Assembly (NCBI GenBank): GCA_030373145.1
Contig: JAUCZK010000005.1
Span: 62,001 to 126,000 of the forward strand
Direction: 5' to 3'
Length of the DNA stretch: 64,000 nt
Origin: Cyanobium sp. CZS48M
GTDB taxonomy: Bacteria; Cyanobacteriota; Cyanobacteriia; PCC-6307; Cyanobiaceae
Shown: one piece after another, positions 38,349-41,545 of the stretch
How the letters are laid out: each line of letters starts with the position of its first letter
How positions within the stretch are numbered: the stretch's first letter is position 1
Translations under genes and position numbers: made by a program
Notes under the pieces: model-generated
What the model was told of the DNA's origin: nothing
Database searches by the model: none
Seen by the model: the letters and a program-made list of their open reading frames with translations, nothing else

Positions 38349-39077
38349 TCAGCTGAAGCGCTTGGCCAGGGCCACCGGATCGAAGACTGTGATTTTCTTG
38401 CGGTCGATCTGCACCAGCCCGGCTTGACGCAGATCGCCCAGCAGGCGGGTGATCGTCACCCGGGTGGAGCCGATCGCTTCGGCGATCGCCTGATGGGAGA
38501 GGCGCAGGTCGATCGTGATGCCTTCGCTGCCGGGCACGCCGAAATCCCGGCAGAGCACCAACAGGAAACTCACCAGCCGTGACGACATGTCCCGGTGGGT
38601 GAGGGTTTCGATCATGGTCTCGGTCTGCAGGATCCGCGAGGAGAGGCCCTGCAGGAGCAGCAGGCCCACAGCGGAGTCCTGCTCGATGGCCCGGCGCACC
38701 GAAGCCGCCGGCGCTGCCACCAGCTCAACGCGGGTGAAGGCCACAGCATGGTAAAACCGATCCGAGCGCTGGCCGGTCAGCAGAGAGAGCACGCCGAACA
38801 GGCTGTTTTCACGCAGCAGGGCCACGGTGATCTCTTCGCCCGATTCATACACCCGCGAGAGCCGCACGGCTCCACGGCGCAGGAGGTAAACCCGTTCAGC
38901 CGGATCGCCGGGGAAAAAGATCGTCTTTCCCCGCTCAACGGTTTCGAGCACGCAACCACTCAGGCCGCGCATCACATCCAGCAGGGTGCTCGCTCCGTTG
39001 GCGGCAGCGGCGAGGCCTACGGGGGCCGGTGTCGATGGGCCGCCGGTGCGACTGAATCCGCGCATCGCGCCAACCAT
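38349..39077 (-). CDS. ntcA: Global nitrogen regulator NtcA
   Basis: NtcA is the CRP-family activator that responds to 2-oxoglutarate and controls nitrogen genes. The cyclic-nucleotide-like effector domain ([40 protein letters not shown]), the dimer helix ([20 protein letters not shown]) and the HTH ([20 protein letters not shown]) are almost canonical. The variable N-terminus leaves two starts, ATG 39077 and ATG 39065; I use 39077 (242 residues). A self-regulated promoter is visible just upstream. Confidence 0.97.
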
Positions 39078-39103
39078 GTTTCGGCGGAGCAGGTGTGAGA
39101 CGG

Positions 39104-39145
39104 ACGGTAAGGATCGCCCATGGCTCGCCCTGTAGTCACCGACAC
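39104..39145 (-). promoter_or_regulatory. Probable NtcA-activated promoter of ntcA
   Basis: On the minus strand, GTG-N8-TAC followed by A (one mismatch to GTA-N8-TAC) at 39145-39132 is followed by exactly 22 bases and then TACCGT at 39109-39104, a full match to TAN3T. This is the class II NtcA promoter layout. It predicts a transcription start about 20 bases before ATG 39077. Confidence 0.6.
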
Positions 39146-39284
39146 TAATCAATCGCATCCATTCAAACCCGGCCAAGCCTCGTCTGGGGTTGGAGTACAG
39201 GTGTTCGCGCTAGGGATGGTGGCTGAGGCTTGCTGGCGGCCTGGACACCGCTACATTCGGGTTCGCGCTTCCCTTGGGGTGTTG

Positions 39285-39878
39285 ATGACGGCCAGCCTGC
39301 GCAACGCCTCCACCGAGTCGCGCCCTTCCCTGCGCGCCCTTGGCACGTCCCGGCCGGTGCCGCCCCGGCCCAGGCCGGCGCTCGCCAGGCCCGAAGGCTT
39401 GCTTCAGGTGCACACGGCTCCCTTCCGCGGCAGTTTCGGTGGGGTATTCAGCCAGGCCCTGCGCAGCGCCGGGCTGGGCAGCCGGGTGCTGATCAGCCAG
39501 TTTCTCAAGGGCGGGGTGGAGCAGGGACCCGAGCACAGCCTCAGCCTCTGCGGCCGGCTGCAGTGGTTGCGTCCGGCGGTGCCCTCCTGCCTCACCAAGC
39601 CCGCCGCCGAGGAGCAGGAGCCGGTGCGCGCTGCCGTTCAGGAGGTGTGGGCCTTCAGCCGCAGCCAGCTGCTGGGGGCCGCCGTGGAGCTGCTGGTGCT
39701 CGATGAACTGGGGCTGGCCATTGAGCTGGGTTTTCTCGCTCCCCAGGAGGTGATCAGCACCCTGGAGCAACGGCCGGCCCACCTGGATGTGATCCTCACG
39801 GGGCCGTCGATTCCCCTGGAGCTGCTGGCCATGGCTGATCAGGTCACCCAGCTGCGGCGGGGAGGTGCCCCGTGCTGA
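39285..39878 (+). CDS. BtuR/CobO cobalamin adenosyltransferase homologue with degenerate P-loop
   Basis: The 197-residue protein aligns with the BtuR/CobO family: RSAGLGSRVLISQFLKGG, then ELLVLDELGLAIELGFLAPQ (Walker-B-like), RPAHLDVILTGPSIPLELLA and ADQVTQLRRGGAP. The expected Walker A (GxGKGKTT) is replaced by APFRGSFGG, so the nucleotide-binding Lys and Thr are gone. True adenosyltransferase activity is therefore doubtful; a regulatory or altered role is inference. ATG 39285 is chosen; the longer track ORF begins in the ntcA promoter region. It overlaps dcd by 7 bases. Confidence 0.8.
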   Translation: MTASLRNASTESRPSLRALGTSRPVPPRPRPALARPEGLLQVHTAPFRGSFGGVFSQALRSAGLGSRVLISQFLKGGVEQGPEHSLSLCGRLQWLRPAVPSCLTKPAAEEQEPVRAAVQEVWAFSRSQLLGAAVELLVLDELGLAIELGFLAPQEVISTLEQRPAHLDVILTGPSIPLELLAMADQVTQLRRGGAPC

Positions 39879-40465
39879 AGAACGACCGCTGGATCAAAGC
39901 GCTGGCGGCGGAAGGGATGATCCAGCCCTTCCAGTCCACCCTGGTGCGACATCTGCAGCCGGAAACCAGCTCCAGCCCGGTGCTGAGCTTCGGCTGCTCC
40001 TCCTACGGCTACGACCTGCGCCTCTCTCCGCGGGAATTCCTGATCTTTCGCCACGTGCCCGGCACGGTGATGAACCCGAAGCGGTTCAATCCAGACAACC
40101 TCGAGCCCGCCCCCCTCCATCACGACGAGGATGGCGACTACTTCATCCTGCCGGCCCATTCCTATGGCCTGGGCGTGGCCCTGGAGAAGCTGAAGGTTCC
40201 GCCCATGATCACCGTGATCTGCCTGGGCAAGAGCACTTACGCCCGGCTTGGCATCATCGTCAACACCACTCCGGCGGAGGCGGGCTGGGAGGGCCATCTC
40301 ACCCTCGAGTTCAGCAACTCATCCGGCGCCGACTGCCGGATCTATGCCAACGAAGGCATCACCCAGTTGCTGTTCTTTGAAGGTGATCCCTGCGACACCA
40401 CCTACCAGGATCGCGCCGGCAAGTATCAGCATCAGCCCGAGCGCGTCACCCTCGCCAGGGTCTGA
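39872..40465 (+). CDS. dcd: dCTP deaminase
   Basis: Dcd converts dCTP to dUTP, the source of dUMP for thymidylate. The 197-residue trimeric enzyme shows SFGCSSYGYDLRLSPREFL, CLGKSTYARLGIIVNTTPAE (Ser/Arg and substrate loop), AGWEGHLTLEFSNSS (catalytic Glu) and YANEGITQLLFFEGDP. The start is GTG 39872, inside the end of the BtuR-like gene, indicating coupling. The thyX gene lies just beyond on the opposite strand. Confidence 0.95.
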   Translation: MLKNDRWIKALAAEGMIQPFQSTLVRHLQPETSSSPVLSFGCSSYGYDLRLSPREFLIFRHVPGTVMNPKRFNPDNLEPAPLHHDEDGDYFILPAHSYGLGVALEKLKVPPMITVICLGKSTYARLGIIVNTTPAEAGWEGHLTLEFSNSSGADCRIYANEGITQLLFFEGDPCDTTYQDRAGKYQHQPERVTLARV

Positions 40466-40819: not shown

Positions 40820-41545
40820 TCAGGGGGCCAGGCGCGCTTTGTGCAGCCGGGCTCGGCTGTACCAAGCGGCGAACTCCGGAGCCCACGCCTCCAGGTGGGG
40901 CCACATCAGGTCACAGAGCTGACGGATTTCGAGCTGCGCATCCAGCTTCGCGCGCAGGTCGAGGAAATGCAGAAACGCCCGCAGGCTGAAGCTCACCACG
41001 AAGTGCTGGCGGTAGTCGAACGGCAGGATGCCGCGGGCGTGCTCCTCGGCGTAGCCGGCATCGAGCAGGTCGCGGTAGCGCTCGGCGGCGGCACGGCAGA
41101 GACCGAGATCGATGGCCCGCTGGGCGTCGTCGTAGAGGTACTTCTTGCCCTGGCGGTCGCTGTAGGCGCCCACCGGCCGCAGGTAGAACACCTCCTCCAG
41201 CTCCAGTTCGCCATTGGCGGCCCGGCGGATGCGATCGCCTGTGTAGCGCATGGATTGCACATCGAAACTCACGCCCACCCGGTGGGTACGGGCCTGCTGC
41301 ATCACCGAATGGGGGAACCAGCCGACGTTGAGCACGATCTGGGCATGCTCCAGGGGCCCGTAGTGGCCGCGCTCGCCGGAGAGCAGTCGCTTCACGCAGA
41401 TTTCACCGGCCTTCGTCTCGTCCGGCCAGTCGTCCCGGTCCGCGGCCACGAACCCCTCGCTGTAGTCCTGGTGCATCCCGGCATAGACGCACTGCTGGGG
41501 ATTCGGGGTGGCCGCGATCAAGCTGACCCGGAAGCGGGGATCCAT
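40820..41545 (-). CDS. thyX: FAD-dependent thymidylate synthase
   Basis: ThyX makes dTMP from dUMP with FAD and methylene-tetrahydrofolate, replacing ThyA. The 241-residue enzyme has the ThyX signature region QQARTHRVGVSFDVQSMRY (RHR-like motif with the later Ser), HAQIVLNVGWFPHSVM, and HFVVSFSLRAFLHFLDLR. The first Arg-His pair is spelled RTHR rather than RHR, an allowed spacing variant in some members. With dcd nearby it completes a short dTTP route. Confidence 0.93.
   Translation of the reverse strand: MDPRFRVSLIAATPNPQQCVYAGMHQDYSEGFVAADRDDWPDETKAGEICVKRLLSGERGHYGPLEHAQIVLNVGWFPHSVMQQARTHRVGVSFDVQSMRYTGDRIRRAANGELELEEVFYLRPVGAYSDRQGKKYLYDDAQRAIDLGLCRAAAERYRDLLDAGYAEEHARGILPFDYRQHFVVSFSLRAFLHFLDLRAKLDAQLEIRQLCDLMWPHLEAWAPEFAAWYSRARLHKARLAP

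Follow-up and report, generated by a model that had tools for sequence, protein, structure and literature searches.

What might a protein of the cobalamin adenosyltransferase family do in a cyanobacterium once its ATP-binding loop has been replaced? The question is raised by a gene in the window, by which we mean the whole stretch of 64,000 nucleotides of Cyanobium sp. CZS48M analysed here. The original prediction described the gene as a BtuR/CobO homologue in which the P-loop had been lost and the remainder preserved. Our findings suggest that the encoded protein is probably a dedicated, non-catalytic helper rather than the product of a dying gene, and that it occurs in nearly all cyanobacteria with a B12-dependent RNR. 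The features that bear on its ATP site are as follows.

39285..39878, + strand: P-loop-less CobO paralogue (PRK07414 family), 197 aa, from ATG to TGA, assigned by profile matches and an AlphaFold2 model
39417..39440, + strand: altered Walker A codons; APFRGSFG replaces G-x-G-K-G-K-T-T, with Arg48 nearly invariant in the family
39804..39806, + strand: Pro174 codon; TGR161 of CobA becomes TGP in the alignment

Fold, altered ATP site and maintenance of the protein

The window protein belongs to the CobA/CobO sequence family and fold. Pfam profile PF02572 (CobA_CobO_BtuR) matches it at 90.6 bits against a cut-off of 25.7 (E 1.7e-25) and is its sole Pfam match above cut-off; the protein falls outside the PduO family. 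The BtuR/CobO landmarks QFLKGG, LVLDELGLAIELG and VILTGPSIPLELL are all present, and the start ATG with the codons that follow it is kept in most of nine aligned relatives. The AlphaFold2 model is confident (pLDDT 89.6), and a Foldseek search places CobA structures 4hut (E 4.4e-11) and 1g64 as its best PDB matches (TM 0.66-0.83), with thymidine kinases as the next structural neighbours, weakly.

The loss of the P-loop is borne out by the alignment, in which residues 36-43 of Salmonella CobA (GNGKGKTT) are matched without a gap by residues 45-52 of the window protein (APFRGSFG). The original prediction framed this loss as a peculiarity of one genome; it is instead fixed in a cyanobacteria-wide family, which rules out a recent local event. 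Indeed, none of 154 relatives, which span picocyanobacteria, Nostocaceae-type and many further families, has the Walker A pattern GxxxxGK[ST]. Arginine replaces CobA Lys39 in 152 of 153 relatives, serine or phenylalanine stands in place of Lys41, and mostly phenylalanine in place of Thr42. In CobA numbering, R51, Q63, K66, G67, W109, D127 and E128 are kept family-wide, whereas K41, T42, W69 and R161 are lost. The last of these losses, TGR to TGP, comes in addition to the missing Walker A motif, so that the ATP side is changed at both ends. Both W69 and R161 are invariant in CobA and in cyanobacterial CobO and are missing from the window protein, and the P-loop-less proteins have invariant residues of their own, among them W94, R96 and W122. 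In CobA, W69 and F91 lie near the corrinoid. Because W69, and probably F91, is not kept in the P-loop-less protein, corrinoid binding is not assured, F91 and W93 of CobA falling in a stretch where the alignment with the window protein is uncertain.

The altered nucleotide site that was also proposed might still be active, in which case the arginine in place of Lys39 and the retained D-E pair would serve another nucleotide or reaction. The near-invariance of that arginine and the retention of VLDE and R51 are consistent with such a site, but most of the loop glycines have gone together with Lys41, Thr42 and R161, and a bulky phenylalanine sits in the loop of most members. We regard this explanation as quite improbable.

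Phylogenetically, the P-loop-less proteins form one clade separate from CobO and from two-domain (tandem) CobO (SH-aLRT 99), in a tree of the three groups whose long branches leave the order among them unsettled. The best NCBIfam match of the window protein is NF005648/PRK07414, named 'P-loop NTPase family protein' (E 2.7e-52). Its 176.9 bits lie below the curated cut-off of 248, which is reached in none of 251 Cyanobiaceae genomes, and all picocyanobacterial members scored against the profile are likewise below it. Orthology is nevertheless evident in the single clade formed with members above the NF005648 cut-off and in their common synteny with dcd. The window gene thus belongs with the cyanobacteria-wide orthologous PRK07414 family, of which loss of the P-loop is the fixed state, and the name given to NF005648 is a misnomer, a P-loop being present in no member examined. 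Proteins of genus g19 and of genome G163 (L150, L151, L152) have an insertion after QFLKGG and before VLDE. This insertion splits the HMM match, and the apparent absence of the gene from G018, G068 and G163 was therefore false. A contig titled Bifidobacterium breve (L200, CALPNT020000040.1) encodes a 60% identical, picocyanobacterial-type protein, and its bin is probably mislabelled.

Within the genus of the window, dN/dS of the P-loop-less gene is 0.11-0.26, as expected of purifying selection. Together with the invariant residues and the confident fold, these ratios indicate that the gene encodes a maintained protein rather than being a dying gene. The new role envisaged in the original prediction is thereby supported, both by the absence of Walker A from the relatives and by the dN/dS values, which also speak against random decay among close relatives. 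One clear pseudogene does exist (G579:C1:1599676-1600215); it contains seven stop codons, and its genome has retained NrdJ. That a decaying gene is simply carried along by the neighbouring dcd is, however, extremely improbable: the gene has its own conserved promoter and is retained where dcd is not adjacent, and decay is ruled out by the dN/dS values and the invariant residues.

Paralogues and co-occurrence with class II RNR

A second intact btuR gene had been anticipated in the genome, and two intact CobO-type genes are found. One is a CobO with the motif GDGKGKTT, encoded beside pyrH and frr; the other is a two-domain CobO with GDGKGKSQ and GEGKGKST. The window genome also has an RTPR-type, adenosylcobalamin-dependent nrdJ.

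We compared the distributions of the P-loop-less gene and RTPR-type NrdJ across 291 Cyanobacteriia genomes that are at least 95% complete, tallying two-by-two counts from two lists. The gene is present in 262 of these genomes and NrdJ in 258; 251 have both, 11 the gene only, 7 NrdJ only and 22 neither. Strict one-to-one coupling to RTPR-type NrdJ is ruled out by the 11 exceptions; a second type of class II enzyme accounts for most of them. Ten of these 11 genomes encode a different RNR large subunit; three of the ten, representing two families, were scanned, and all three score above the cut-off of TIGR02504, the profile of the adenosylcobalamin-dependent class II enzyme NrdJ_Z. No RNR was found in the eleventh, the contaminated draft G592. 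Both scanned non-holders, G264 and G054 (the latter being the only picocyanobacterial one), have class I NrdA, and in all 15 tested genomes with neither gene, leaving G301 aside, there is a PF02867 large subunit scoring like that of G264. Given NrdJ_Z in genomes with the gene only and class I RNR in the scanned non-holders, the P-loop-less gene seems to follow the use of B12-dependent RNR, whichever of the two types it is. A Synechococcus elongatus control genome scored above cut-off for both the P-loop-less family and NrdJ. In the single-contig genome G301, RNR was not found by PF02867, by TIGR02505 or by a DNA search with nrdJ, and G301 was left out of the profile argument for this reason; its genus-mate G462 has NrdJ and the P-loop-less gene.

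An rpoC1 tree indicates about three losses of class II RNR, with the P-loop-less gene missing each time. An independent-pairs test on this tree yields only three pairs, too few to reach significance, and the co-occurrence is thus not significant alone. The P-loop-less gene was lost oftener (nine changes in all) while NrdJ stayed, and class II RNR without it is found in G304, G369, G614, G616 and three drafts that are 95-97% complete. The retention of NrdJ without the gene, and the pseudogene of G579, argue that the gene is helpful to class II RNR and not strictly required by it. The complete genome G614 (G614:C1:2350500-2355000, L153), of family f55, encodes NrdJ and a diverged two-domain CobO and is without both canonical CobO and the P-loop-less gene.

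Two-domain CobO (PRK07413; G000:C1:428415-429539, L307) tracks class II RNR closer than the window gene does. It is present in 266 of the 291 genomes, including all 18 in which the P-loop-less gene and RTPR-type NrdJ disagree, and may be an RNR-dedicated AdoCbl synthase.

These paralogues give substance to the main rival of a cofactor-escort role, namely that the P-loop-less protein is a regulatory partner. CobA is a homodimer, and heterodimers formed with CobO or two-domain CobO would tune AdoCbl synthesis or steer it to RNR with no carriage of cofactor. The modelled retention of the CobA fold, the two intact paralogues in one genome and the closer tracking of class II RNR by tandem CobO all fit this explanation. 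The tandem CobO gene, however, lies elsewhere in the genome and has no operator of the kind described below, and on balance we think a regulatory partnership of this type unlikely.

The dcd operon and a putative NrdR-type operator

The surroundings of the gene comprise three neighbouring genes and four upstream elements.

38349..39176, - strand: ntcA (TIGR03697), divergent neighbour; outside the conserved module elsewhere
39207..39222, + strand: NrdR-box-like palindrome, GC-rich and degenerate, GCGCTAGGGATGGTGG; conserved in close relatives
39230..39235, + strand: -35-like TTGCTG, from sequence inspection; conserved in close relatives
39248..39263, + strand: second, weak box, CCGCTACATTCGGGTT, 41 bp after the first and overlapping the -10
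39252..39257, + strand: -10-like TACATT, 16 bp from the -35, from sequence inspection; conserved in close relatives
39872..40465, + strand: dcd, dCTP deaminase, its start overlapping the P-loop-less gene; conserved operon partner
40820..41545, - strand: thyX, FAD-dependent thymidylate synthase; on the same strand as dcd in Prochlorococcus-type loci

The gene had been described as joined by overlap to dcd and lying next to ntcA, and both statements are accurate for the window. The GTG start of dcd at 39872 gives an overlap of 7 bases, with the encoded Dcd scoring over the cut-off of TIGR02274, and ntcA, on the opposite strand, matches TIGR03697 at 371.8 bits (cut-off 244.95). As meaningful context, dcd stands and ntcA does not. 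Of 40 neighbourhood loci picked to be diverse, 32 have dcd immediately downstream in the same orientation, many non-picocyanobacterial families included. The divergent upstream neighbour differs elsewhere, often being rph or adk, which rules out a general link to ntcA. Often thyX follows dcd, and it overlaps dcd in Prochlorococcus-type loci. An Rfam search of 18 loci returned no cobalamin riboswitch near the P-loop-less gene, its sole match being a tmRNA at one locus. In two IMG/VR contigs (L235:241-2057 and L236:9-1627), a Prochlorococcus-type block of P-loop-less cobO, dcd and thyX continues into phage-like genes. The junction appears to lie inside thyX, L236 starts with an unrelated fragment fused in frame, and the contigs may represent an assembly chimera or host-phage recombination at thyX.

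Upstream of the family's genes lies a 16-bp NrdR-box-like palindrome, exemplified by ACACTATATATTGTAT in locus L079 and ACACCATAGATAGTGT in several marine picocyanobacteria. Scored against what we take to be the NrdR box consensus, boxes of at least 13/16 occur in 14 of 100 picocyanobacterial upstreams (0.25 expected) and in 10 of 54 others (0.35 expected), counts that do not represent independent events because the upstream sequences are related; the downstream control region has none. Pairs of boxes 41-42 bp apart with a sum of 18 are present in 65 of 95 picocyanobacterial upstreams against 9.4 expected, and with a stricter sum of 21 in 18 of 54 others against 0.4 expected; both exceed the control spacings, which are themselves somewhat raised since one strong box lifts every pair. 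The upstreams of nrdJ have box pairs at 31-32 and 41-42 bp, and those of CobO and two-domain CobO have pairs at chance level. Known NrdR boxes are separated by spacers of 15-16 and 25-26 bp (PMC12051234), equivalent to 31-32 and 41-42 bp from start to start, as found here. By its paired boxes the family would belong to the NrdR regulon, the boxes of the window itself being degenerate, and the P-loop-less gene and nrdJ are predicted from their upstream sequences to have a similar NrdR-type operator in common. We found no report in the literature of a P-loop-less cobO gene as an NrdR target. Among 8 loci in which dcd is not adjacent, 5 still have a box of at least 12; the NrdR-like site therefore follows the P-loop-less gene, and an operator belonging only to dcd is ruled out. 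The coupling to class II RNR and the NrdR-type operator, neither of which figured in the original prediction, are the most informative context of the gene.

A role wholly in deoxynucleotide metabolism also has to be considered here, in which the protein would have no tie to cobamides and would act alongside Dcd or ThyX, for instance as a regulator that binds dNTPs. The tight operon with dcd, and often thyX, would suit such a role, as would the loss of W69 and, weakly, the thymidine kinases among the structural neighbours. It fits less well with the absence of the gene where class I RNR replaces class II, with its persistence when one class II RNR is swapped for another, and with loci that keep both gene and operator without a nearby dcd. 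We judge a purely deoxynucleotide role to be rather improbable.

Proposed role and relation to known systems

Taken together, the loss of Walker A, purifying selection, the dcd operon, the class II RNR profile and the NrdR-type operators common with nrdJ lead us to read the protein as an accessory of class II RNR. We hold its membership of a class II RNR module to be highly probable. That it is a conserved pseudo-adenosyltransferase of CobA/CobO fold, kept as an accessory that supports NrdJ, has in our view an even chance of being correct. Most likely it serves as a cobamide escort or loading factor, or as a regulatory partner, of class II RNR, a biochemical step that we infer.

It is tempting to speculate how such an accessory would operate. 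The ATP site of an ancestral CobA/CobO-fold protein would have been lost early in cyanobacterial evolution. A shortage of dNTPs would cause NrdR to release both nrdJ and the P-loop-less cobO-dcd operon, and the P-loop-less protein would then support NrdJ. At the likeliest step, it would hold adenosylcobamide from catalytic CobO or two-domain CobO, or hand it over, with no use of ATP; alternatively, it may swap a damaged cofactor, again without ATP. The escort step taken alone is a tentative proposal, made by analogy with human ATR, and a shade more tentative is the idea that the protein, descended from a dead CobO, is a factor dedicated to loading or repairing the cofactor of class II RNR and is co-induced with that enzyme through NrdR. 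To our knowledge, no chaperone or reactivating factor of this loading kind is known for class II RNRs. The corrinoid-sensing or scaffold role put forward originally is possible.

The gene is near-universal in class II RNR-dependent cyanobacteria, including Prochlorococcus and marine Synechococcus, which need adenosylated cobamide for DNA replication. If it is true that the protein loads or guards this cofactor, it would reveal how DNA synthesis in cyanobacteria is tied to the supply of cobalt and B12. Furthermore, of the three btuR/cobO copies that B12 surveys count, one is very probably not an adenosyltransferase.

Three btuR copies have been described in cyanobacteria, one being a cyanobacteria-only single-domain clade (Tery_2088). 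Different adenosylation substrates were proposed for them, and all three proteins were detected in Trichodesmium (Walworth et al. 2018; PMC5816740). By length and distribution, the Tery_2088 clade is most likely the P-loop-less family. In the parts of that paper available to us the copies are treated as adenosyltransferases, and there is no mention of a missing P-loop or of a connection with RNR. The open-access literature yielded no experiment on the family and no paper on its lost P-loop, RNR link or operator. It appears, then, that the family is known as the third btuR copy, and that the lost P-loop, the RNR coupling and the NrdR-type operator are new.

Cyanophage P-SS2 carries a class II RNR, two-domain cobO, dcd, thyX and thioredoxin (PMC2784084), an independent sign that these functions travel together; as evidence against the proposed role, however, its tandem cobO is the sole match to the P-loop-less protein in this phage. 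The two-domain CobO of cyanobacteria and P-SS2 is likewise a cyanobacterial CobO paralogue that follows class II RNR, but it differs in having both P-loops intact, in forming a separate clade and in that no NrdR-type operator was found for it. Human MMAB/ATR, an adenosyltransferase, acts in addition as an escort that delivers AdoCbl to a client enzyme (PMC8633584). The likeness would be functional only, since MMAB/ATR belongs to another family, is catalytically active and serves methylmalonyl-CoA mutase. The closest comparison is with CobA/BtuR/CobO itself (PF02572; PDB 1g64, 4hut), with which the P-loop-less protein has family, fold and residues Q63, K66, G67, R51, D127 and E128 in common, and from which it differs by the loss of Walker A, R161 and W69, by its separate clade and by its gene context.
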